64,000 nt of DNA, from IMG/VR virus record IMGVR_UViG_3300022752_000019, positions 62,001 through 126,000 of that record; one strand, written 5' to 3'. Source of the DNA: a virus. This document shows, piece after piece, positions 9,415-62,141 of the stretch (positions within the stretch are counted from its first letter, which is position 1; the number at the start of each line of letters is the position of its first letter). Position numbers and translations under genes: made by a program. The notes under the pieces are model-generated. The model ran no database searches and was not told the DNA's origin. It saw nothing but the letters and a program-made list of their open reading frames with translations.

Positions 9415-9822
9415 ATGGGAGCTTTCTCCGATCGGTTTGACCACGAAGACAGCGGGTCATCGCGTCGCCCCGAGTGTTATGGCGACCCGGATTACTACGA
9501 TATCACGGACGAGAGATGCCGGCAGTGTCCGGTAAAGGGTACATGCCGTATCAAGGTTCAGTCATTGGAGCGAGAACAGCGGAGAGCAAGTGCGCCGACA
9601 ACAACGACGTACTCTCCGAGTACCACTCCGGGCTCCGCGTATCGTCCGTCAGTGAAGGCGAAGGTGTATGAGGAACCGGAAGCGGCGGACACATTCACAG
9701 GCGTCCTGGCCTACAACGCGGGTCTAAACGCGATCACGACGATGAGTGAAACGTTGACGGAGGCACTTGCAGGAATTCCTCGCAAGAAATACCCGTCTCT
9801 GAAGAGGAGAAAGGTGGAATGA
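9415..9822 (+). CDS. Small Cys-cluster protein, first gene of the replication operon
   Basis: 135 residues from ATG 9415, with GGAGG about 10 nt upstream; the frame extends to 9355 without a better start. Four cysteines (C21, C35, C38, C44; PECYGDP...CRQCPVKGTC) form a compact cluster suited to zinc or an iron-sulfur centre. A Thr/Ser/Pro-rich linker and a basic C-terminus (KKYPSLKRRK) follow. It overlaps the helicase start by 4 nt (ATGA). Similar short PECYG...CxxCP modules occur in uncharacterised phage proteins; function is unknown. Confidence 0.7.
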   Translation: MGAFSDRFDHEDSGSSRRPECYGDPDYYDITDERCRQCPVKGTCRIKVQSLEREQRRASAPTTTTYSPSTTPGSAYRPSVKAKVYEEPEAADTFTGVLAYNAGLNAITTMSETLTEALAGIPRKKYPSLKRRKVE

Positions 9823-11192
9823 TCAGGCTGCCGATCTTGGAGGAAGGTAAGGCTTACCGAGGTCGGCATCTCTTTCTGCCGAAGACAAAGGTGAGCCGCG
9901 CGACGATGGAAGGGCTGCTCACTTTCGGAGACGACCCAAGCCGGGGAAGCCGAGGGCTTGTGGTCGAGCATCCGCATCACATCCAGGTGCCGAAGTACGC
10001 GCTCTCTGATGAGCAACTTGCCAAGCTCGGCTGTCCGCTTGTCGAAGAGCAGCGCGTCTACCCAAAGATCAACCTCTCCCGCAAGCCCACCTTTGATCTG
10101 CGGGACAATCAGCTCGAAGCGTGGGAGGCACTGAAGGCAGCAAAGAGGGGGATCTTGAACCTTGCCTGCGGGAAAGGCAAGACCGTCATGGGCTGGAACA
10201 AGGCTGCGCACGAGAAGGTGCCGACCCTCATCGTCAGCCCACAGCGCGCGCACCTGGACAACTGGATTGGAGAGCTTCGGCAGTTCTTTGACTACCCTGG
10301 AGAAGTCGGCTGGATTCAAGGGAAGCGGTTTGAATACGAGGCCGACATCTGTGTATCGACCGTTCAGACGTTGGCAGCACGGGCAGAGGAGGGCACTCTC
10401 CCGGCAGACTTCTACCAGCGATTCGGCCTGGTCATCTACGACGAGTGCCACATCATGGCTGCGGACTTCTTCTCGAAGGCCAGCAGCGTAGGCTCCGGCA
10501 TTCGTCTTGGGCTCACGGCAACCCCAACACGGACAGATCGTTGCGAAGGCATCTTCTACTCTCACCTGGGGCCCGTCTTCTACTCGGACATCAGTCAGGA
10601 CCTGACGCCGACGATCTTCGTCGTCGAGACTGGCGTGTTTTACAGAGAAGAAGAACAGAAGAAGATGCTGGACAAGACGGGGCAGCTAAACGTGGGGCGC
10701 TTGCACAAGACCCTTGCCGAAAACAAGGATCGCAACGCCGTCATTCAGGAAGTCATCGACGAGTGCCTCCGAAGGGGGCGAACAGTCTATGCACTCTCGC
10801 ATGGACCAGAGCACATCGAGGAGTTCCAGAAGGCCAACCCAGGCTCAACCGTGATTCACGGCGGAACGAAGTCAGAGGAGCGGCTGGGTCGCCTGAACGG
10901 CAGCAACTTGGTGTTCGCCTCCGTAGGCGTCGGAGCTGCCGCGTACAACCGCAAGGACCTGGACACCCTCATCCTGATGACGCCCTTCGCCGCGCGGTCT
11001 CACTCGGCGATCACATTCCAACAGAGCGTGGGTCGGATCCTGCGCGCGCTTCCCGGAAAGAAGGATCCATGGGTCTTTCTCATCATGGACAAGTCCGTCG
11101 ACGCATGCAAGGGGATGGTTCACTCCCTCATCCGTGAAAGTCAGCGTCGCGGATATCGTGTCATAACGAGATGGAACTGGAACGCAGTATAG
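9819..11192 (+). CDS. Superfamily 2 DEAD/DEAH-type helicase
   Basis: 457 residues. Walker A ACGKGKT (116-122), DECH box (about 207-212), TATPTR motif III, and QQSVGRILR motif VI (about 402-410) define an SF2 helicase of the SSL2/UvsW-like group: ATP-dependent unwinding or branch migration of DNA, or DNA/RNA remodelling. The first 90 residues form a small N-terminal domain before the Q-motif-like DNQLEAW. It is the second gene of the replication operon, overlapping its neighbour by 4 nt. In T4, UvsW has a recombination and origin-switching role; equivalence here is inference. Confidence 0.9.
   Translation: MIRLPILEEGKAYRGRHLFLPKTKVSRATMEGLLTFGDDPSRGSRGLVVEHPHHIQVPKYALSDEQLAKLGCPLVEEQRVYPKINLSRKPTFDLRDNQLEAWEALKAAKRGILNLACGKGKTVMGWNKAAHEKVPTLIVSPQRAHLDNWIGELRQFFDYPGEVGWIQGKRFEYEADICVSTVQTLAARAEEGTLPADFYQRFGLVIYDECHIMAADFFSKASSVGSGIRLGLTATPTRTDRCEGIFYSHLGPVFYSDISQDLTPTIFVVETGVFYREEEQKKMLDKTGQLNVGRLHKTLAENKDRNAVIQEVIDECLRRGRTVYALSHGPEHIEEFQKANPGSTVIHGGTKSEERLGRLNGSNLVFASVGVGAAAYNRKDLDTLILMTPFAARSHSAITFQQSVGRILRALPGKKDPWVFLIMDKSVDACKGMVHSLIRESQRRGYRVITRWNWNAV
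11160..11166 (+). promoter_or_regulatory. GTCATAA motif, copy 5 (inside coding sequence)
   Basis: GTCATAAC near the 3' end of the helicase gene, 41 nt upstream of the UDG-like gene start. It is the only copy found outside an intergenic region and may be chance or an internal promoter for the downstream replication genes. Confidence 0.25.
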
Positions 11193-11200
11193 GAGATGCA

Positions 11201-11914
11201 ATGATTGGCTTCAGCGCGCTTCGCGCGCTCAATGACGAGTACAAGAAGTGCTCAAGGTGTCCGCGGCTGTGCGCAAGTCGCACTCAGCCGGTGTTCGGCA
11301 CGGGAAGCATCACGGCGGACATCGTCTATGTGGGCGGGGCCCCTGCCGCCGAGGAGGATGCGGAGGGACTTCCTTTCGTGGGACCTGCGGGCCGGATGCT
11401 TCTTCAGCTCTTTGAGAAGGTCTGGCCCACCGACGACGAGATCGACGCGATTCGGCAAGTCGACGACAACGATCTGTACTTCGACAAACTGTCCGACTAC
11501 ATGACCCAGAGAATCTTCCTCACGAACGCGGTCCTATGTCGTCCCGAGGACGACCGAGTTCCGTCTGCGACGGAACTCAAGGAGTGCCGAGATCGTCTTC
11601 ACCAGACGATCTACGCCATTGATCCCATCCTGATCATTGCCGGCGGTAAGACCGCTGCATCGCATCTGGTTGGGAAGAATGTGAACATCCTCGAGAAGCG
11701 CGGAGAGTTGATGGACATCACCATCACGTCTCCTTCGACTGACCGAGAGGTTCGATACGCCATGCTTCCGGTCCTGGACTGCGGCTTCCTTCTTCGGAAG
11801 GGAGACTCCGCACTTGTCAAGGAGAAGAAGGGGCACACATTCGATACGCTGGGCGACTTCCGCTACGCGCTCGAGATTGTTGACACACACCGCAAGTTGG
11901 TTCGGAGTCTTTGA
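11201..11914 (+). CDS. Family 4-like uracil-DNA glycosylase (iron-sulfur type)
   Basis: 237 residues from ATG 11201 (TAGGAG 6 nt upstream). Motif 1 reads GGAPAAEEDAEGLPFVGPAG, close to the family 4 GEAPG..ED..G.PFVG.AG consensus. C17, C20, C113 and C129 match the four iron-sulfur ligands of that family, including the NAVLCRPEDDRVPS...EC block. The expected C-terminal HP(S/A) loop is replaced by PVLDCGFLLR, so the usual histidine is absent. An insertion of about 30 residues follows motif 1. It may repair uracil in phage DNA or act as a binding protein only. It overlaps the next gene by 1 nt. Confidence 0.8.
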   Translation: MIGFSALRALNDEYKKCSRCPRLCASRTQPVFGTGSITADIVYVGGAPAAEEDAEGLPFVGPAGRMLLQLFEKVWPTDDEIDAIRQVDDNDLYFDKLSDYMTQRIFLTNAVLCRPEDDRVPSATELKECRDRLHQTIYAIDPILIIAGGKTAASHLVGKNVNILEKRGELMDITITSPSTDREVRYAMLPVLDCGFLLRKGDSALVKEKKGHTFDTLGDFRYALEIVDTHRKLVRSL

Positions 11915-12336
11915 TGGAAAACACCCAGCGCCTTGTCGAGATCTCTCACCGCCTCTCCGACATCACAGAGAGCCTGAAGGCCAGCGAACCGGAGTTGTTC
12001 GAGGAGCTCGAGGCCCTTCGCACAGAGAAGGCGGGTCTGATCGAGAAGGCCAAGCTCGAGTTGCGAGAGGCCGGGGTAGGCACGCACACCATTGGCGGCT
12101 TCAAGATCAAGGTGGCCCCGGGCACCAAGAAGCGGGTCTACAACGTCGACGACATTCAGGAGTTGGCTGAGGAGCTCGGGCACACCGATCTGCTGACGAA
12201 GTACAAGGTGTTCAAGACCGAGGTGGACACCGACCAGATCGAGCGGCTTCCGCCCGAGATCAAGGTCCACTACCAGGACCTCTACACGGAGACGGTACAG
12301 AGCGCGAAGGTGACTCTGCCGAAGGAACTTCAGTGA
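11914..12336 (+). CDS. Hypothetical protein with N-terminal coiled coil
   Basis: 140 residues from the ATG of a TGATG overlap at 11914. Residues 1-55 are strongly helical and charged (coiled-coil-like). A GGFKIKV beta segment and an acidic helical C-terminus follow. The arrangement loosely recalls small phage proteins that bind nucleases or recombination enzymes (Gam-like), but no diagnostic motif is visible. It lies between the UDG-like gene and the DnaB-type helicase, so a replication or repair role is likely from context only. Confidence 0.6.
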   Translation: MENTQRLVEISHRLSDITESLKASEPELFEELEALRTEKAGLIEKAKLELREAGVGTHTIGGFKIKVAPGTKKRVYNVDDIQELAEELGHTDLLTKYKVFKTEVDTDQIERLPPEIKVHYQDLYTETVQSAKVTLPKELQ

Positions 12337-12653
12337 TCGACATCTCCATCTCAAGTGGAGACGACCGCAGAATCGCGTCCTTCCCCGTAACGCCGGAGAA
12401 CACGGGCATGGCACAGAACGAGTTGTCCAAGTTGATTGGGGACGGTAAGGCATCCGTCAGTTGTGCGGTATCCTTCGCGGACAAGGACTACGGCAACGGT
12501 TACGAGGTAAGGGTCTCAGTCAGCCTTGCCTGCAACCAGGATCGAGGCACGCTTGATCTCGCTGCCGCTGCTGCGCAGGAGATTGCCTCCGTTCATCTCG
12601 AGCAAGCCAAATCCATGGCAGAGGTGATGTATGGAGAACTCTCGAGGAAGTGA
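12333..12653 (+). CDS. Hypothetical protein, 106 aa
   Basis: Begins at a GTG that overlaps the preceding TGA by 4 nt, the usual coupling in this operon. Beta-rich N-terminal half (ISISSGDDRRIASFPV, YEVRVSVSLAC) and a helical C-terminus. No family recognised. Downstream coupling to the next ORF, which starts inside it at 12631, supports it being translated. Confidence 0.55.
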   Translation: MIDISISSGDDRRIASFPVTPENTGMAQNELSKLIGDGKASVSCAVSFADKDYGNGYEVRVSVSLACNQDRGTLDLAAAAAQEIASVHLEQAKSMAEVMYGELSRK

Positions 12654-12900
12654 TGTCCGCATCGACATCGTCCGCGTAGAGGTCACTCCTGCTTCCGCTG
12701 AGATCAAGGTAGCCTACCTTCTGAGCCTAAAGAACAAGGTCTTTGAGGGTGCGGTTGCCGGAGGGGAGACCCAGTTCTCGAATGAGACACTGGGTCTCCA
12801 GCTCTTAGAGCTGGTTGAGAAGATCCGGGTCCAGATCGAACAAGATCTGGGCCTGACTTCCGCATCAGAGAATTCTGTGGAAGAAGAGGACCCATTGTAA
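12631..12900 (+). CDS. Hypothetical protein, 89 aa
   Basis: ATG at 12631 with AGAGGTG just upstream; overlaps the previous gene by 23 nt. The sequence is a beta-rich body (RIDIVRVEVTPASAEIKVAYLLSL) followed by an amphipathic helix and an acidic C-terminus (SVEEEDPL). Its last base is the first of the DnaB-type helicase start (TAATG). The strand pattern of IDI...VTP...IKV resembles that of the preceding 106-aa protein, so the two could be related or form a pair, but this is by eye. Confidence 0.55.
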   Translation: MENSRGSDVRIDIVRVEVTPASAEIKVAYLLSLKNKVFEGAVAGGETQFSNETLGLQLLELVEKIRVQIEQDLGLTSASENSVEEEDPL

Positions 12901-15545
12901 TGCCGCATCCGGAACTTGAGCTGATTAGCAACATCCTGAACTCGGGTGACTTCAACACGCCCAAGAAGAAGGGGTTGACCGCTGAGTGGTTTACACTGGA
13001 AGCTGCAAAAGACGCGTATCAGTGGCTGTGGGACGAGTACCACGACCCGCAACAGCGCGGAGAAGTGCCGACCGTTGATCGGTTCCTGCGGAAGTTCCCC
13101 AGCTTCGACTACGCGCCCAGCCGGAACTCGTTGAACGCCCTCATCACGGATGTGCGGACGTCGAAGGTCCAGGCAGACCTTCAACACATGCTGAACGAGA
13201 TGCAGGACGAGTTGGTGGATGGAGAAGATCCTTCCCTCATCCTCGACTCCTTCCTGCCGAAATTCCGGCGTATGAATGTGGAGGCGCACGAGGACGACGG
13301 CATCCTCTTGTCGTCCTCCGTTGCAATCCTAAAACAGCAGTACTCCACCCATGCCGAGTCTGGCGGTGTCGTCGGCATCCCGTACCCGTGGGAGATCTTG
13401 AACCAAAAGACCGGCGGTATGCGGGATGAGGAGTTCATTGTCATCTACGGCAGACCCGCAAACATGAAATGCGTGGTAGAGGGACAACGCATCATGATGC
13501 CCAACGGCGACATGATCCCGATTGAGGACCTTCCAGACCTCTGTACTGTCTCCTCATTCACAGATGCGACCATGAGCATGCGCTGGGCAGCAGCCCGGCG
13601 CGTGGTTAGCGGAGAAAAGGAGTGCGTTCGGGTGACGACGGAGAGCGGCCGCGTCATTGAGACAAGTACCGAGCACTACTTCATGGTCCCTGAAGGCTCC
13701 TTTGAAGGGAAGTACGACAGGATTCGAGACCTGCATGTTGGCAGTTGGATTGCTACTGCCCGCAGCGTCCCAGATTGGTCTTCGGAAAACCATGACCCTA
13801 AGCTGGGATGGCTTCTGGGCGCCCTGACGGGTGATGGGAACTACACACGAAGCGAGGTTCAATTCACCAATCACGATTCCGACGTGGTGTCCTCGCTTAG
13901 GTCCATCGCCCTCACGTACAACTGTAAGGTAAACAGTGGGAGCGTGGAGGGCGAATACCGGGTCGTGTCCTACGATACCCACAAGAACAAGATCTTGGAT
14001 CTACTCCGAGAGCTTGGGATGCACGGAAAGAAAGGGCCTGAGAAAGAAGTCCCGTCTTGGATTTTCCGATCCTCTCGTCAGACGATCGCGGCTTACTTGG
14101 GCGGTCTGTTGGACACCGATGGGACCGTTCGCAGCGCGTCTCCGTCTCGAGTCGCCTGGTACACTTCAAGCCCGAAGCTGGCCCGAGACATCCAGCATCT
14201 CTTGATGCGACTCGGCATCTCCCGGGCCGGAATCTCTGTTGATGCTGCAAAAGAGCAGCGGCAGATTTCCGTGTATGGCCCTGACCAGTACCGCATCCTG
14301 TTGAAAGTACTGGGCCCGTATTTGAGCTGCATGCGTAAGCGCACGGCACTCGAGGATCTCGCCAAAGAAACGGGAACCTCTCCAAATAACGACGGGATTC
14401 CCTGCTCTCGCAGACTGGAGGGACTGATCCTGGAGAAGAAGGGAGCACGTCTCTGGCCCCGGATGGGCAACTCGAAGCTGGATCGCTCCAAACTCTTCCG
14501 CAGGAGCGGATGCATCAGCCGCGCACTCCTCGAGAAGATGGCAACAGAATGGGGATCTGCCGAGTTGGCACTGGAGGCCCAGACACAGATTCGATGGGAG
14601 CGAATCAAGTCAATTGAACCGATTGGTAGAAAGCCCTGCTACGACGTCTGTATTCAGGACGGCCAAGATCCGAACTTCGTTGTCGAAGACTTCGTCGTTC
14701 ACAATACGTGGGCCGCGTGCGCGATTGCAGCGCATGCGTACCTTACGAACCATCGTGTGATGGTCTTCTCGAAGGAGATCTCACGCGAAGCCATGCTCAC
14801 GCGAATCTCGTCTATTCTGGGCAACGTGGACTACGACCGCCTCCGTCGCGGCTTGCTGTCCGAGGAAGACGCCGAAGAGTTCTTTGAGCTGATGGAGGAG
14901 CTTGCAGAGACCGAGGAAGACGAGAGCGTGGGTGCGCACCATCGCGCGCTCCTGTTCATGTCCGACAAGGGAAAGAAGTCGGGTAGTACCGTCGAAGACC
15001 TGATTGCGGCTGCCGAGCGGTTCCAGCCAGACCTGATCGTAGTCGACGGCTTCTACCTCATGCGCGACGGAAGGTCCGGGCAAAGAACGGCTGACTGGAA
15101 GCAGATTAGCCACATCAGCCAAGACCTCAAAGGCATGGCTCAGTTTGTTGGTTGTCCCGTCGTTGGTACGACGCAGGCCAATCGCGCGAATGCCAAAGAG
15201 CCCACTGGCGACGTTGATGACCTGTCGTTTGCGGACGGCATCGGCCAAGACGCAGACATCGCGTTCCGCGTATTCAAGGGACCAAACCCTTCGGGGAGAG
15301 GAGCCTCCCTTCTTTTTGTGTTCAGCAAGAGTAGAGAGACAGTGATTCCCCCGTTCATCATCAATGCTTCTCCCGGCTCAGACTTCAGCGTGCAGCAGGC
15401 CCATGCGAACGTGAAGGCGTTCCTTGAGTTGAAGGCGCAGATGGAGATGTCCGAGGGCGCTGACGGTGACGAGGGCGGGGGCGGCGGAGGTAAGAAGGAA
15501 GAGAAGAAAAAGCCCAAGAAGAGAGATGACCCCTTCAGAGCCTGA
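12900..15545 (+). CDS. dnaB: DnaB-type replicative helicase containing an intein
   Basis: 881-residue precursor; after splicing 469 residues, normal for a phage DnaB-like helicase that unwinds the fork in front of the polymerase. N-terminal helical domain (residues 1-120), then the RecA-like motor. The P-loop is GRPANMK-T: the usual Gly before Lys is Met, and an intein interrupts the motif between K190 and T603. After the intein come LIVVDGFY (Walker B) and GTTQANRANAKEP (sensor-like). The C-terminus is a Gly run followed by a Lys-rich tail. It overlaps the primase gene by 20 nt, as expected for a helicase-primase pair. Confidence 0.93.
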   Translation: MPHPELELISNILNSGDFNTPKKKGLTAEWFTLEAAKDAYQWLWDEYHDPQQRGEVPTVDRFLRKFPSFDYAPSRNSLNALITDVRTSKVQADLQHMLNEMQDELVDGEDPSLILDSFLPKFRRMNVEAHEDDGILLSSSVAILKQQYSTHAESGGVVGIPYPWEILNQKTGGMRDEEFIVIYGRPANMKCVVEGQRIMMPNGDMIPIEDLPDLCTVSSFTDATMSMRWAAARRVVSGEKECVRVTTESGRVIETSTEHYFMVPEGSFEGKYDRIRDLHVGSWIATARSVPDWSSENHDPKLGWLLGALTGDGNYTRSEVQFTNHDSDVVSSLRSIALTYNCKVNSGSVEGEYRVVSYDTHKNKILDLLRELGMHGKKGPEKEVPSWIFRSSRQTIAAYLGGLLDTDGTVRSASPSRVAWYTSSPKLARDIQHLLMRLGISRAGISVDAAKEQRQISVYGPDQYRILLKVLGPYLSCMRKRTALEDLAKETGTSPNNDGIPCSRRLEGLILEKKGARLWPRMGNSKLDRSKLFRRSGCISRALLEKMATEWGSAELALEAQTQIRWERIKSIEPIGRKPCYDVCIQDGQDPNFVVEDFVVHNTWAACAIAAHAYLTNHRVMVFSKEISREAMLTRISSILGNVDYDRLRRGLLSEEDAEEFFELMEELAETEEDESVGAHHRALLFMSDKGKKSGSTVEDLIAAAERFQPDLIVVDGFYLMRDGRSGQRTADWKQISHISQDLKGMAQFVGCPVVGTTQANRANAKEPTGDVDDLSFADGIGQDADIAFRVFKGPNPSGRGASLLFVFSKSRETVIPPFIINASPGSDFSVQQAHANVKAFLELKAQMEMSEGADGDEGGGGGGKKEEKKKPKKRDDPFRA
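13470..14705 (+). mobile_element. Intein with LAGLIDADG homing endonuclease in the DnaB P-loop
   Basis: 412 residues (191-602 of the precursor). Cys1 opens the intein (CVVEGQRI), block B TSTEHYFMV follows, and the C-terminal splicing block ends NFVVEDFVVHN with +1 Thr. Two dodecapeptides, LGWLLGALTGDG (302-313) and AAYLGGLLDTDG (397-408), mark a two-motif LAGLIDADG endonuclease that would cut an empty dnaB allele. All residues needed for splicing appear present. Inteins at DnaB P-loops are known in bacteria and phages. Confidence 0.95.
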
Positions 15546-16491
15546 CTTTCTTCCAGAGTTCCAGAAGTATGTCCCCGGACTCCGCCCAGGGTCCGGGGAC
15601 AACTTCATGGGCTTCTGTCCCATTCACGGAGAGGTGGTAGGGCAAAGCAAGCCGAGCCTGTCTGTCAACGTGAAGACGGGACTGTGGTTCTGCTTCGCAG
15701 GATGCGGCGGCGGGAACATCCGAAAGTTCCTGACGCTGCTTGGAGAAAGCAAGGCAGTTGTTGACAAGATTTCGGCTAAGAAAGTATCGACAAGTCCCGC
15801 GAAGCGAGCTAAGAAGACTGCTCCTGCGGATGAGATCCCAGAGCGGCTATTGGGCGTGTTCGACTGGTGCCCGGAGCAGCTTGTACGGGAAGGATTCCGC
15901 GAGAAGGTGCTCTTTGACAACGACGTAGGATTCGACAGGAAACTGTCGAGAATCACATTCCCTGTTCGTGATAGGACAGGGAAACTGGTCGGCATCGTAG
16001 GCAAGCAGCCGTCCAGTGAATTCGGAAAGTACAAGGTCTATACTACCGAACTTCTGGAGTATGGACTGAGAGTCCCTTCATTTTCGAAGGGAGATCACTT
16101 GTGGCGAATCGATAAGGTGGTCGAGGAGCTTCAACACGAACGCAAGCCTGTGTTCATTGTTGAGGGATTCAAGGCTGCCCTGTGGTTCTGCCAGGCGGGC
16201 ATCACGAATGTCGTTGCTCTGATGGGCAGCTACATGACGGATACCCAAAAACAGTTGGTCGAGAGTCTGAGTCCTCGGATCATCTTGTGTCTCGACAACG
16301 ACGACGCAGGGCAGTCTGGGACTCTGAAGATCGCCCAAAAACTTCAGGCTTCACGCGTTCACGTTGCCATCTTGCCGGAGGGGATTCATCAGCCCGATGA
16401 CCTCACCTCGGCGGAACTTCGTGAAGTGTGTAGCACCCCCGTAAGTATCAGTGAGGCAAGACGACAATGGCTCCTAAGACAATCCCCCTGA
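15526..16491 (+). CDS. dnaG: DnaG-type primase
   Basis: 321 residues from ATG 15526, which overlaps the helicase end; a longer frame to 15466 is a shadow of its Gly/Lys tail. A CHC2-type zinc domain (C31, H34, C56, C60; CPIHGE...FCFAGC) is followed by a TOPRIM core (FIVEGFKAAL with the catalytic Glu near residue 211; CLDNDDAG near 258). It synthesises RNA primers for lagging-strand replication together with the DnaB-type helicase. Shorter than bacterial DnaG because the helicase-binding C-terminal domain is missing or reduced, as in many phages. Confidence 0.92.
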   Translation: MTPSEPDFLPEFQKYVPGLRPGSGDNFMGFCPIHGEVVGQSKPSLSVNVKTGLWFCFAGCGGGNIRKFLTLLGESKAVVDKISAKKVSTSPAKRAKKTAPADEIPERLLGVFDWCPEQLVREGFREKVLFDNDVGFDRKLSRITFPVRDRTGKLVGIVGKQPSSEFGKYKVYTTELLEYGLRVPSFSKGDHLWRIDKVVEELQHERKPVFIVEGFKAALWFCQAGITNVVALMGSYMTDTQKQLVESLSPRIILCLDNDDAGQSGTLKIAQKLQASRVHVAILPEGIHQPDDLTSAELREVCSTPVSISEARRQWLLRQSP

Positions 16492-17588
16492 GTGCAAACC
16501 GTGGACGTAATGGCAAGGGCGGCCCTCGCCAGAAGAAGGCCGGCTGGAGTGCCAAGTGGTCCGATGAGTTGAAGATCGGCAAAGACGAGTCGGCGTGGAT
16601 CCAGATCACGCCGGGCAAGTACGAGGGCGAGGACGGTAACCTCCAGTCCTACTACTGCGCCCCCATGTTCAAGCTCCAGTTCCAGAACAAGTTCGGAGGC
16701 ACATCCTGGGGCTACTACCGCGGCAATGGTGGCCCGGACTGCACCCTTCAGCAGTGCGCCGATTCCAAGAACCCGAATGTTGAGGAGCCCAAGTACGGCG
16801 CCCCCAATCGGTTCTTCGTGAACGTGATTCACTACGGAGTGTACGCCCGCACCCCGCTCGAAAAGGACGGCAAGCCCGTCACCTACGCGGACGGAAAGCT
16901 GAAGGGACAGCCCGTCTACATCTGGAACGAGGTCAAGACGGTCCGGGAGAAGCGGCAGCTCATCTCGAACGGAGACCCGGAGGACGTCGGCTTCTTCCGC
17001 AAGAAGTTCCTTGAGCTGCCGGCCACGCAGTTCAAGATCATCCAGGAGGTCGCCAAGAAGGCGCGCTCCATGTGCAAGTGTGGCGGCACGCTGTTCCCCT
17101 CGGTGTTTGTCTGCCCGGAGTGCGAGGGCGTTCTTCTGGACGCCTCCGAATCGGACATGACCGACGCGGAGATCGCGAACTACGGTGACCAGGACATTCG
17201 CTGCCGCCACTGCGGCTCGGTGAACTTCCCTCGCGCGGAGTACGACTGTGACTCCTGCTCGGATCCGCGTCCGCACGAGTACCATGAGGTTGCGGCGAAG
17301 ATCAAGAAGGTGACCGGCAACAACGGCTACCCCTCCCTCGCCGTGGACAACGTAGTCTCGATGCGCGACCACACCTTCGAGAACAAGAAGCCCATCGTCG
17401 AGTCCGAGAAGGAAGACGGGTCGTTCAAGTACCCGGAGGACATCGAGAACCTGATGAAGGTCCAGTACGACTTCGAGACCTACACGGCCCCGAAGACGAA
17501 TGCGGAGTACTCTGAGCTGCTTGGGCTGCGTGAAGGTGACAACGGCTTCGTGTCCAACGCGAAGCGGTACAACAACTTCCGCGGATAG
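16467..17588 (+). CDS. Zinc-ribbon protein, putative single-stranded DNA-binding protein
   Basis: 373 residues, ATG 16467 overlapping the primase by 25 nt. A basic N-terminus (about residues 10-30) is followed by a beta-rich region, then two zinc ribbons: C203/C205/C216/C219 and C246/C249/C261/C264. The C-terminal third is acidic. Position between primase and DNA polymerase, dedicated terminator, a basic start and an acidic end fit a phage ssDNA-binding protein such as T4 gp32, which also holds zinc, but the folds cannot be equated by eye. The alternative is an unrelated replication accessory protein. Confidence 0.6.
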   Translation: MAPKTIPLSANRGRNGKGGPRQKKAGWSAKWSDELKIGKDESAWIQITPGKYEGEDGNLQSYYCAPMFKLQFQNKFGGTSWGYYRGNGGPDCTLQQCADSKNPNVEEPKYGAPNRFFVNVIHYGVYARTPLEKDGKPVTYADGKLKGQPVYIWNEVKTVREKRQLISNGDPEDVGFFRKKFLELPATQFKIIQEVAKKARSMCKCGGTLFPSVFVCPECEGVLLDASESDMTDAEIANYGDQDIRCRHCGSVNFPRAEYDCDSCSDPRPHEYHEVAAKIKKVTGNNGYPSLAVDNVVSMRDHTFENKKPIVESEKEDGSFKYPEDIENLMKVQYDFETYTAPKTNAEYSELLGLREGDNGFVSNAKRYNNFRG

Positions 17589-17595
17589 TTCATCT

Positions 17596-17626
17596 CCGAG
17601 GGGCCCCTTGTGGGCCCCTCGGTTTT
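17596..17626 (+). terminator. Intrinsic terminator after the zinc-ribbon gene
   Basis: CCGAGGGGCCC (17596-17606), loop CTTGT, GGGCCCCTCGG (17612-17622), then TTTT. Perfect 11-bp stem. The polymerase start codon follows only 13 nt later, so partial read-through must supply polA or a promoter lies within the upstream gene. Confidence 0.9.
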
Positions 17627-17638
17627 GTGGAGAAGAAC

Positions 17639-20044
17639 ATGCGCTACAAATTCGTCGATACCCCAGAGCCACTGTACATCTCCGACAAGAAAGATGCGGA
17701 GGCCACGGCTCGCGTGATGATGAAGCTGCGTTGCGTCGGGTTTGACACTGAAACCACTGGTCTCAGCAAGACCGAGGCGCGCATCAAGTTCTTCTCCTTT
17801 GGTTTCGAGGGGAAGAGATTTTGTGCTCCCGTAAGACTTCTTCCGGTCTTTCAGCCAGTGCTGGAGGATCCTCGCATCGACAAGTGCATGACGAACGCGA
17901 AGTTCGACATGCACATGGCGGCGAATCACGGAATCGAAATCCGGGGTCACATCTTTGATACCGTAGCCATGGACTGGCTACACGATGAGAACCGCCAGGG
18001 GCGGCACGGCCTCAAGCAGTGCGCAGCCGACTACCTTGGCCTCAAGATGGCCCCCTTCACACAGGTCTTCGGGTCCGTCGGAACGACGGACAAGGAGGTG
18101 GAGACTCTGTGTCGCATGCACGATGCGTTGGAAGACAACGATGCGTCTCATGCGCTGGAGATCCTCGCCCTCATCGGCCAAGTAGACATGGATCCAGACG
18201 CTCTGGAGGACATGCAGTCCGTCTCAAAGAAGCTGGCGGCTGGCCGCAAGGATCCACTGAAGCTCTACTCGGCGGTGCAAGTCCTCAAGATCGCGCGCAA
18301 GTACGGGCTCTGTCCGACGACGCGCGGCAAGGGAGGATACATCAGCGACTTTTCTGAGCTGCTCGGACTCGGCCCCGTGCCAAAGGAAGAGCGCGAAGAG
18401 TCCGCAGAGATTCTGGGTGACACCGACGCGCTGCTTGAGGCACACGAGTACATCCTCGAGACACTCGGCAAGAAGTCCACCAGTGAGTTGCCTCCGTTGG
18501 AGATGATTCGGCTCATGGTCGGAGACTATGCGTCTCTCGACGCCTGGGCGACATTCAAGCTTGTTGAGGAGCTGGAAGACAGGCTGTCGAGCGAAGACTT
18601 GCAGCCAGGAATCACACTCCTGGACTACTACAACTCCACAACTGCGGTCTTGGTTCGCATCCTGTGGATGATGGAGCGGCGCGGCTTCCAGCTTGACGTG
18701 GATGAGATCAACAAGCTCTCCCGTCCAATGCAGGCCGATATTTCGCGTCTCGAACGAGAGTTCGTGTCGATGGCGGGATGGGAAGTCAACCCGAACAGTC
18801 CAGCACAGTTGGTGGACCTGTTCTTCACGAAGAAAGGCAACCAATGGGTAGACCCCTTTGGGATGCCCCCGAGGAAGATGTCCTCGGGGGGTTCATCTGG
18901 AGTGAAGAAGCCCTCAATCTCGAAAGAGGTGATCGAGGACTGGGCCGAGAGGGGCGACCCTCGTGCGAAGATCCTTCAGGAGCACCGAGTGCTCCAGAAG
19001 CTTCACAGTACCTACATCGAGGCGTTGCCGCGCACGGTGGACGCACGGAGACGCATTCACACAGACCTAAAGGTCGCCGGAACGGTCACCGGGCGTCTGT
19101 CATCCGGAGAACCAAATCTACAGAACATCCCGGCGCGTGGTGATTGGGGACGCAGGATTCGGGAGTTCTTTGTTGCCGGCTTCTGGGGGTCTTGTGATCC
19201 TTGGTGCCTGCCAGAGGTAGAAGGAGTCCCGCTGCCGAAGTTTGCGCGAGATCAGCCCATGCGGCTAATCGTCGCGGACTATGAGCAGCTCGAGATGCGC
19301 ATCATGGCGCATATGAGTGGCGATCCAGTGATGATCGACACGATCAAGAGCGGGAAAGACCTCCACTCCATGACCGGAGCGTTGGCCGTCGGCGCCGACT
19401 ACGACGAGATTACCAAGGCGAAGAAGGCCGACAAGCCGACTCCCGACCAACTCAAGCTTCTCGAGCTTCGTAGTCAGATGAAGGCAGTCGGCTTCGGCTT
19501 GCTGTACGGCATCGGAGCTAAGAAGCTGGGAGGGCAGCTTGGGCTCAAGATGGTCAAGAAGTATGGCCGAAATGGGCAGGTCTACGATACTTGCCCGGAG
19601 GCCGAGGCACTGATCGAGAAGTACTTCTCGATCTACCCGAAGGTCGCAGAGTTCATCGAGGACACTCACTATGAGTGCGAAGAGAACCTGTATGTCTGCA
19701 CGATTCTGGGAAGGTATCGGCGGCTGCCAGATATCTTGTCAAAGGACCGTGGGTTGGCGATGCAGGCGCAGCGCCAGTCGGTTAACTCCAGAATTCAAGG
19801 TTCTGCCGCAGACATCGCCAATCAGGCGATGATTAACTGCGAGATGAGTAAGACCCTGCGCAAGCTCGGGGTGCGGATGCTGATGCAGATCCATGACGAG
19901 CTTGTATTTGAGGCCCCCGACATTCCAGAGATCATTGAGGAAGCCAAGCCGGAGATTCGCAGGTGCATGGAGAACCCCTTCCCAATGGACGTCCCCATCC
20001 TCATCTCGATGGATGACGCCCACTCCTGGGGAGAGGCCAAGTGA
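17639..20044 (+). CDS. polA: Family A DNA polymerase with 3'-5' exonuclease
   Basis: 801 residues from ATG 17639 (GGAGAAG upstream; a GTG at 17627 is less likely). Exonuclease motifs: FDTETTGL (D36, E38), NAKFD (D90) and YASLD (Y297, D301). Polymerase motif A is VADYEQLEMR (about 546-555), motif B RSQMKAVGFGLLYG, motif C QIHDELVFE (about 750). The predicted replicative polymerase of this phage. Between the second and third exonuclease motifs lies an insertion of roughly 150 residues (about 142-290), absent from the Klenow fold. No 5'-3' exonuclease domain. It overlaps the HU-like gene by 4 nt. Confidence 0.95.
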   Translation: MRYKFVDTPEPLYISDKKDAEATARVMMKLRCVGFDTETTGLSKTEARIKFFSFGFEGKRFCAPVRLLPVFQPVLEDPRIDKCMTNAKFDMHMAANHGIEIRGHIFDTVAMDWLHDENRQGRHGLKQCAADYLGLKMAPFTQVFGSVGTTDKEVETLCRMHDALEDNDASHALEILALIGQVDMDPDALEDMQSVSKKLAAGRKDPLKLYSAVQVLKIARKYGLCPTTRGKGGYISDFSELLGLGPVPKEEREESAEILGDTDALLEAHEYILETLGKKSTSELPPLEMIRLMVGDYASLDAWATFKLVEELEDRLSSEDLQPGITLLDYYNSTTAVLVRILWMMERRGFQLDVDEINKLSRPMQADISRLEREFVSMAGWEVNPNSPAQLVDLFFTKKGNQWVDPFGMPPRKMSSGGSSGVKKPSISKEVIEDWAERGDPRAKILQEHRVLQKLHSTYIEALPRTVDARRRIHTDLKVAGTVTGRLSSGEPNLQNIPARGDWGRRIREFFVAGFWGSCDPWCLPEVEGVPLPKFARDQPMRLIVADYEQLEMRIMAHMSGDPVMIDTIKSGKDLHSMTGALAVGADYDEITKAKKADKPTPDQLKLLELRSQMKAVGFGLLYGIGAKKLGGQLGLKMVKKYGRNGQVYDTCPEAEALIEKYFSIYPKVAEFIEDTHYECEENLYVCTILGRYRRLPDILSKDRGLAMQAQRQSVNSRIQGSAADIANQAMINCEMSKTLRKLGVRMLMQIHDELVFEAPDIPEIIEEAKPEIRRCMENPFPMDVPILISMDDAHSWGEAK

Positions 20045-20358
20045 ACCAGGCAGAGATGGAGAAGGAGATCGCCAAGAGAACTGGGCTGCCACTTCCCGCA
20101 GTTCAATTGGTGATCACCTCGCTCAAGGACGTAATGTCCGAAAGCCTCGGAAGGCAGCAAGATGTTGTCTTCCGAGGGCTCTTCCGGATCACAAGCACCA
20201 TTCGAGAGATCAGCTCCTTCCAGACTCGCGTTGGAGTAGACGAGCCTAAGAGGCAGACAGCGTATAAACTGGTTCTGGGAATCCACCCCGTCAAAGCGTT
20301 TCGCTCGGAGTTGAACCAATGGACAAGTACGCTGTCGTCCTCGACGACCAACACGTAA
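20041..20358 (+). CDS. HU/IHF-like DNA-binding protein
   Basis: 105 residues from a GTG overlapping the polymerase stop. The pattern of two N-terminal helices (EMEKEIAKRTGLPLPAVQLV) and a beta arm region (VVFRGLFRI...) matches the HU/IHF family, which bends and compacts DNA as a dimer. The C-terminal 12 residues (Ser/Thr-rich) are atypical. The arm tip lacks the usual GRNPxTG, which becomes VGVDEPKRQTAYK, so DNA binding details may differ. The context suggests a role in origin or recombination complexes or DNA packing. Confidence 0.8.
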   Translation: MNQAEMEKEIAKRTGLPLPAVQLVITSLKDVMSESLGRQQDVVFRGLFRITSTIREISSFQTRVGVDEPKRQTAYKLVLGIHPVKAFRSELNQWTSTLSSSTTNT

Positions 20359-20510
20359 AGACCGCGATGGAAGGGCCGGGCTCGTGCCCTTCCTGCGGAT
20401 CACGCAAGGTTGACACGCGGGGACTCACCCCGATGTGTCCGAACTGTGGCACTCGCCCCTGGGAAAAGAATGCCTCCTCGCAAAGCAGCAACCGCCGAAG
20501 CGCCCGCTAA
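20319..20510 (+). CDS. Small zinc-ribbon protein
   Basis: 63 residues, ATG 20319 with CGGAG upstream. CPSCG...MCPNCG is a clean four-Cys zinc ribbon. It overlaps the HU-like gene by 40 nt and the RecA gene by 41 nt in other frames, which lowers confidence. The ribbon is nevertheless too regular to be chance. Function unknown. Confidence 0.6.
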   Translation: MDKYAVVLDDQHVKTAMEGPGSCPSCGSRKVDTRGLTPMCPNCGTRPWEKNASSQSSNRRSAR

Positions 20511-21627
20511 TGGCGCCACCGCCGTCATCAACAAGCTGAAGAGCAAGTACCCCGGCAAGGTGTTCACCGCCGGGGAGTACACGATGCCCTGGAAGATGAA
20601 GCGCCTGCCGACGGGCGTCCTCGATCTCGACATCGCCCTGGGTGGCGGGCTGCCTGCCGGCGGCATGACGTTCCTGACCGGCAAGCAGGGAGTGGGGAAG
20701 AACTGGATGGTCAATCAGATCATCCGTCTTCACCAGGAGCGTCACGGCGCAAAGACCTCGGTCGCGGTAGTCTCGACTGAGATGGTGTACGACAAGGAGT
20801 ACGCGCGTCTTTGCGGCGTGAAGGTCTCCATGTCGGACCTTGAGATTGCAGAGCTTCGGGAGCAGTACGAGGCTCACGACGAACCGTGGCCTGCCGAGTA
20901 CGAGGCAGAGCTTCGGGAACAGGTCGGAGAGTTCGTCACTGTTCCTCCGTCCTTGGCCGAGGAGTCGCTCCAGATTGCGATTGACCTGATTGCCAGCCGC
21001 GAGTTCGACATCGTCGTCATTGACTCGTTTGGGTCACTCCTCACGGAGCACGATGATGAGTCAGAGCTTGCGGAGGCCAACCGTGTTGGAGGCGCTGCCC
21101 TCTTGAACACCAAGTTCGCGCGCAAGCTCAATGCGGCCCTTGGCCCGGATGAGTCGGGCAACCCGAACCTCACCTGCGTCATCGGTATCAACCAGGTTCG
21201 GGACAACACCGACCGCGCGAACAAGTACTCTCCCAAGACCATCGAGGCTGGTGGCTGGGCTCTCAAGCACGCGCGGTGGGTCACCATTGAGTTCTCCCCG
21301 CAGGCGAAGGTTCGTGACGGCGACCTGACCGTAGGTAAGACGGTTCGGTGGGAGATCACCAAGCAGAAGGCGGGCGGGCACGAGGGAGCCTCCGGCTCCT
21401 ACGACTACCTCTTCAAGTACACGGGCATCAACCGCGTCCAGCACTCCATCGCCGTTGCGGCGGACTACGGTGTCGTGACGCGGAAGGGCGCATGGTACAG
21501 CTACAACGGTGACCAGATCGGACAAGGTCTCGAAGGGGCCGCCAAGTTTATTGTGGAGAACGACCTTCTTCAGACGATTGAGGATGCCACCCTCAAGGCA
21601 GCGAACATCCGCTGCTCGTACGGGTGA
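20470..21627 (+). CDS. recA: RecA-like recombinase
   Basis: 385 residues from ATG 20470 (GGGAAAAG upstream). RecA/UvsX-type strand-exchange ATPase: GKQGVGKN Walker A (71-78), FDIVVIDSFGSLL Walker B, and CVIGINQVRDN matching the L2/motif region of RecA. Walker A ends in Asn instead of Thr or Ser. The N-terminal 30 residues are short and Pro/Ala-rich, and the C-terminal domain is compact. It overlaps the nuclease gene by 4 nt. Expected role: recombination-dependent replication and repair. Confidence 0.93.
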   Translation: MPPRKAATAEAPANGATAVINKLKSKYPGKVFTAGEYTMPWKMKRLPTGVLDLDIALGGGLPAGGMTFLTGKQGVGKNWMVNQIIRLHQERHGAKTSVAVVSTEMVYDKEYARLCGVKVSMSDLEIAELREQYEAHDEPWPAEYEAELREQVGEFVTVPPSLAEESLQIAIDLIASREFDIVVIDSFGSLLTEHDDESELAEANRVGGAALLNTKFARKLNAALGPDESGNPNLTCVIGINQVRDNTDRANKYSPKTIEAGGWALKHARWVTIEFSPQAKVRDGDLTVGKTVRWEITKQKAGGHEGASGSYDYLFKYTGINRVQHSIAVAADYGVVTRKGAWYSYNGDQIGQGLEGAAKFIVENDLLQTIEDATLKAANIRCSYG

Positions 21628-61796: not shown

Positions 61797-62141
61797 ATGT
61801 TTTTGGCTCTTATTGCGTTCGCAGTGGCAAACGTTACCGCAACCACCGCCGCCAAAGTCCGCGAGGACGAGGCGGAGAAGAACGAGCGGCGGGCCTTTGC
61901 CGCCGCCTTGAAGGAGGCGACTGTCCTCCTTCAGGGGGAGAAGGTCAGCCCCTGGGCGGAAAGGGGCTACGAAGACAACGGTGCTCGATCGGTCGTTCTC
62001 CACGGGGTGGAGTTTTTCTTCACGCCCGCGGAGGTCTCGTGGCTGGAAACGGCCACGAGCGGGGGCACTGATTTCAGTGCTCCCGAAGTTGCCCATCTGT
62101 TGGGCAAAGGCCTGCTGCGGGCCCACGCAAAGCCGCAGTAG
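61797..62141 (+). CDS. Small protein with N-terminal hydrophobic segment, 114 aa
   Basis: ATG 61797 preceded by AAGGAGGTGCCT, an excellent ribosome binding site; the frame also has GTG at 61791. Residues 1-20 (MFLALIAFAVANVTATTAA) are hydrophobic and may be a signal anchor. The rest is charged and helical with a beta stretch (ARSVVLHGVEFFFTP). Two TAG stops in tandem end it, just before a hairpin. Located alone between the tail operon and the ligase gene. Function unknown; a cell-envelope role is possible. Confidence 0.65.
   Translation: MFLALIAFAVANVTATTAAKVREDEAEKNERRAFAAALKEATVLLQGEKVSPWAERGYEDNGARSVVLHGVEFFFTPAEVSWLETATSGGTDFSAPEVAHLLGKGLLRAHAKPQ

Follow-up and report, generated by a model that had tools for sequence, protein, structure and literature searches.

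The DnaB-like helicase gene of this phage was found to carry, between two codons of its P-loop, a class 1 intein bearing a LAGLIDADG homing endonuclease. The reading preferred here, to which we assign a probability of about 0.93, is that this element splices out of the helicase and homes into empty alleles. We infer its splicing activity, the activity and target of its endonuclease and its route of transfer from established knowledge of these families. The window, i.e. the whole stretch of DNA that was analysed, comprised 64,000 nucleotides (positions 62,001 to 126,000 of IMG/VR virus record IMGVR_UViG_3300022752_000019).

The helicase open reading frame (12900-15545, + strand) encoded 881 residues and was free of internal stops. 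Its product was recognised as a DnaB-like replicative helicase by the RecA-like DnaB_C domain and by the Walker A motif found at the insertion point (Table 1). At the 5' junction, codon 190 was AAA (Lys) and codon 191 (13470-13472) was TGC (Cys); at the 3' junction, AAT (Asn, 14703-14705) was followed by ACG (Thr603, 14706-14708). An earlier note on this DNA had placed an intein at 13470-14705, between K190 and T603, and these limits proved exact at the codon level, while 15 relatives fixed them independently. The direct joining of Lys to Thr in empty alleles also confirmed that the element splits Walker A of a DnaB-like helicase. Helicase activity would depend fully on splicing, as can soundly be deduced from the split P-loop.

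The spliced motif reads GRPANMKT (13449-13469 plus 14706-14708), an atypical P-loop with Met at the position of the last Gly. Occupied and empty alleles alike displayed G-R-P-x-x-M-K-T and, since relatives read GRPGNMKT or similar, the methionine is considered a family trait and not damage. Two distant phage DnaB proteins, L054 (ARPGEGKT) and L055 (ARPSVGKT), kept Gly before Lys. The gene had a primase directly downstream and a DNA polymerase nearby, within a replication cluster (window 9819-21627) whose order around DnaB was mostly common to L003, one of the occupied relatives described below.

Table 1. Features of the intein, of its host gene and of the surrounding replication cluster (window coordinates).
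Feature	Position	Strand	Description	Basis
Helicase	9819		replication cluster	
Uncharacterised ORFs	11171-12900		replication cluster	
DnaB with intein	12900		replication cluster	
N-extein	12900..13469	+	residues 1-190, ending with GRPANMK of Walker A	ORF; 15 homologues with uninterrupted gene
Intein	13470..14705	+	412 aa (412 codons), class 1 (Cys1 ... His411-Asn412), with LAGLIDADG homing endonuclease	Pfam/NCBIfam, empty alleles, same-site relatives, AF2 model and PDB fold matches
Block A	13470..13508	+	CVVEGQRIMMPNG; Cys1, predicted first nucleophile	alignments A4/A5; TIGR01445
Block B	13647..13688	+	GRVIETSTEHYFMV; His69 invariant, Ser66 at the usual Thr position, B:12 is Phe (Trp in class 3)	alignments A4/A5
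First LAGLIDADG motif	13803..13844	+	LGWLLGALTGDGNY; catalytic Asp122	alignments; helix 110-122 in model
Second LAGLIDADG motif	14085..14123	+	IAAYLGGLLDTDG; Asp217, within PF14528	Pfam, alignments; helix 203-217 in model
Endonuclease core-to-block F segment	14370..14585	+	conserved WPxMGxSxLDxSKLFRR motif	kept in L003, L064, L068, partly L067
Block F	14631..14678	+	KPCYDVCIQDGQDPNF; Asp392 at F:4 (class 1; Cys in class 3)	alignments
Block G	14682..14705	+	VEDFVVHN; His411-Asn412, then +1 Thr603 (14706-14708)	alignments
C-extein	14706..15545	+	residues 603-881, TWAACAIA..., DnaB_C domain	PF03796 1.7e-20
Primase	15466		replication cluster	
Uncharacterised ORF	16467		replication cluster	
DNA polymerase	17627		replication cluster	
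UvsX-like recombinase	20410		replication cluster	

Three Pfam families were matched in the insert, Intein_splicing (PF14890, 6.8e-11) and LAGLIDADG_3 (PF14528, 4e-14), both above cut-off, and Hom_end. The NCBIfam profile intein_Nterm (TIGR01445, 1.5e-5) began exactly at intein residue 1, and all 412 residues were aligned to the DnaB-with-intein profile PRK07773 (E 3e-40). GC3 was 0.667 in the intein vs 0.768 and 0.717 in the exteins, a difference too weak to date the insertion.

Cys1 and the +1 Thr were each found in all six distinct occupied DnaB alleles, and His69 and His411-Asn412 were invariant in alignment A5. As judged from these alignments, Cys1, His69, Asp392, His411, Asn412 and the +1 Thr define the intein as class 1. 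The threonine of the block B TxxH motif was replaced by Ser66 in the window and in L064 and by Gly in L003; this threonine is frequent in class 1 inteins but not defining. The splicing residues (Cys1, His-Asn and +1 Thr), reported as intact in the earlier note, were upheld by the alignments, with block B slightly off-consensus. Class 3, whose WCT signature consists of Trp at B:12, Cys at F:4 and Thr at G:5 with no nucleophile at residue 1 (PMC3196547), was ruled out by Cys1, Phe at B:12, Asp392 at F:4 and Val at G:5.

We give next to no weight to the view that splicing is dead, in a pseudogene-like intein comparable to that of Arthrobacter Arth_1007, and that the phage relies on a host or second helicase. 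Dead phage-type inteins do exist (PMC3196547), and the serine in place of the block B threonine could be read in this sense. All essential residues are nevertheless present in an open frame, and the C-extein, including the Thr of Walker A, was conserved in line with intein-free relatives.

The presence of an endonuclease, also claimed previously, was supported by PF14528, by the alignments and by the structural model. Each of the two LAGLIDADG helices displayed its catalytic acid (Asp122 in GDG, Asp217 in DTDG) and both residues were conserved. The segment between the endonuclease core and block F was mostly lost in one relative, L069, along with the first LAGLIDADG motif; it is possibly a DNA-recognition subdomain. 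An AF2 model built from eight aligned inteins reached a pLDDT of 89.2 and a pTM of 0.88, and was used instead of an earlier, poor one from three sequences (pLDDT 64.7). Its best Foldseek matches in the PDB were TliVMA (E 5e-21), PI-PfuI, PhoVMA, PI-PkoII and PI-SceI, all of them complete endonuclease-bearing inteins; a sequence profile search agreed and added the Ssp DnaB mini-intein. The likeness to TliVMA, PI-PfuI and PI-SceI concerned the fold as a whole, HINT plus LAGLIDADG (Foldseek probability 1.00), whereas sequence identity was only 13-17 % and their host proteins were others.

Intein-free alleles in related phages, suggested earlier as a check, were found when viral contigs were searched with the C-extein. 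In all 15 contigs recovered the helicase was uninterrupted and RPGNMK (or RPKNMK) was joined straight to TW, giving the exact K/T junction; at the DNA level the site read ATGAAR/ACNTGG and held no insert (slashes mark junctions here and below). Removal of copies left 11 distinct empty alleles, which displayed about 48-87 % identity to the spliced window protein. As to a co-conversion scar, flanking DNA identity to these alleles showed no clear step at the insertion. A degenerate DNA pattern encoding GRPxNMK/C gave a single match, due to chance and with no corresponding reading frame.

Five further distinct occupied alleles were identified: L003 through the intein search, L064 (identical to L059, L065 and L066) through L059, which was reached via a terminase-intein phage, and L067, L068 and L069 through an alignment-based scan. 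All five inteins occupied the same MK/TW site, started with Cys, ended with His-Asn and were followed by Thr. Intein identities to the window, aligned pairwise, ranged from 46 to 54 %, with 51 % for L003 and 54 % (the best) for L059 and L064-L066; L069 reached 42 % in the multiple alignment. Helicase identity of the five to the window was only 29-43 %. A near-identical donor intein was not found (best 54 %), nor was a bacterial relative in the scan of the genome collection. Several matches in published phages were set aside as lying at other insertion sites or in other proteins. The intein of L069 (L069:3001-3843), at the same helicase site, was only 281 aa long; the first LAGLIDADG motif had been deleted together with most of the WPxMG segment, which is what a decaying endonuclease should look like.

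In an extein tree of 17 alleles (200 bootstrap trees), the window helicase grouped with the empty L004 and L006 (97/97), within a broader group of empty alleles. Given the well-supported branches, occupancy must have changed at least twice, and the carriers were united in none of the 200 bootstrap trees. Long branches made the deep part of the tree uncertain, which left the nesting of the window allele unaffected. L067 and L068 were 56 % identical in the intein vs 29 % in the extein, the nearest extein to L067 being that of L069 (48 %), so that intein and extein histories disagree. An ancient intein, inherited vertically at the helicase site and repeatedly and precisely lost from the empty lineages, appears unlikely. 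A tree of the six inteins, in which the window joined L003 and L064, would be compatible with a deep common origin, and in each pair the inteins were more alike than the exteins, possibly because the intein evolves more slowly. Against this, the window allele is nested among the empty L004, L006, L007, L008, L009, L011-L015 and L018, and the relationships of L067, L068 and L069 differ between intein and extein. One gain by the window lineage is far more parsimonious than a vertical history, which would need roughly 7-8 independent precise losses. By this phylogenetic evidence, the intein seems to have entered the window lineage fairly recently. The earlier note had called insertion in the most conserved part typical of a persistent parasite; the parasitic nature of the intein was supported, while persistence does not hold locally, the nearest helicases (86-87 %) being empty.

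The site thus combines sporadic occupancy of one conserved position, empty close relatives and discordance with the host-gene phylogeny. As read from the alleles, this is the pattern of classic homing, with horizontal invasion, sporadic occupancy and decay. In the proposed course of events, the 881-residue precursor would fold around the HINT domain and Cys1 would attack the K190-Cys1 peptide bond. The N-extein would then pass to Thr603 as a branched ester and Asn412 would cyclise, helped by His411, leaving the exteins joined as GRPANMK-TWAA and Walker A complete. Once excised, the LAGLIDADG protein would cleave empty helicase alleles of co-infecting phages in their conserved ATGAAR^ACNTGG region, and the intein would be copied into the cut allele by recombination.

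Insertion into P-loops is a known habit of inteins, and the mechanism of splicing and homing is textbook. Such insertions were described generally in DnaB, RecA and RadA (PMC5874633) and, among individual sites, in mycobacterial DnaB (site b, PMC6195587) and phage terminase (TerL1-a, PMC5050341). The DnaB-b inteins (M. smegmatis DnaBi1, M. leprae DnaBi; PMC6195587) share with the present one the host protein family, the Walker A position and the use of the P-loop hydroxyl residue as +1 nucleophile. DnaBi1 differs as a class 3 mini-intein (WCT, no Cys1) with Ser at +1 and no endonuclease, whereas the window intein is of class 1, carries an endonuclease and is followed by Thr. The M. tuberculosis-type DnaB intein (site a, the kind of M. 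smegmatis DnaBi2) is likewise of class 1 with a homing endonuclease and fits the PRK07773 profile, but it lies in motif H4, outside the P-loop (PMC6195587). Phage terminase inteins (TerL1-a, PMC5050341; Bacillus phage KLEB27-3 TerL, GRRIGK/C...HN/T) also separate Lys from Thr of Walker A in a phage ATPase, although in another host protein and with about 23-26 % intein identity. An equivalent arrangement was displayed by the RecA of Bacillus phage fHSPT3 (GGGK/C...HN/S).

Control of replication timing, raised earlier as a possibility, received no support here; the P-loop inteins for which conditional splicing is on record are others (M. smegmatis DnaBi1, PMC6195587; P. horikoshii RadA, PMC5790916). 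Since P-loop inteins elsewhere show it, conditional splicing of the helicase intein is possible. Domestication of the intein as a post-translational switch, with splicing conditional on redox, temperature, ATP or ssDNA timing helicase activation, is nonetheless judged very unlikely. DnaBi1, in which oxidation inhibits splicing, occupies the same P-loop position (PMC6195587), and the off-consensus block B might slow splicing. That redox-sensitive intein is of class 3, however, while the one considered here is of class 1, and class 1 DnaBi2, with its endonuclease, is fast and unresponsive (PMC6195587). Nothing in sequence or distribution pointed to a switch: close relatives do without the intein, occupancy is sporadic and the endonuclease is intact.

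A second P-loop intein was observed in the same phage, outside the window, in the terminase large subunit (G000:C1:49631-50923 minus, equivalent to L002:1501-2793 minus). It comprised 431 aa between Lys and Ser of GRQVEK/STTLGNK, empty terminase alleles reading GRQVEK-STTLGNK or similar. Its first residue was Thr (ACG), as in L056/L024 (84 %), and Cys in the sister inteins L057/L058 (61 %). Class 1 allows Thr1 in principle. One review named only Cys or Ser at residue 1 of this class. In L072, from the phage of L068 (G020:C1, about 135.5-138.3 kb), a terminase intein-like insert was located elsewhere, near Walker B (LI/CYATGTEV...IISGQ/CVDELQD), with an apparent Gly-Gln end instead of His-Asn.

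The helicase and terminase inteins of the phage were 26 % identical and held equivalent positions (Lys/Thr and Lys/Ser). Both were present in the window phage and G017, the helicase intein alone in G001, the terminase intein alone in G004 and neither in, for example, G003; as all four combinations exist, the two inteins move independently. It seems extremely improbable that two distantly related inteins in the two motor ATPases, with a Cys1 to Thr1 swap by which the terminase precursor retains a P-loop that looks intact (GRQVEK-T), are tuned in their splicing to make the replication motor mature at another time than the packaging motor.

As a homing element, the window intein belongs to a set of class 1 endonuclease-bearing inteins that invaded one P-loop codon pair across environmental phage helicases that have diverged widely. 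With alleles that are empty, occupied or decayed in their endonuclease all available, this natural series makes the homing cycle tractable and offers a direct way to test whether phage P-loop inteins are only parasites or also switches.
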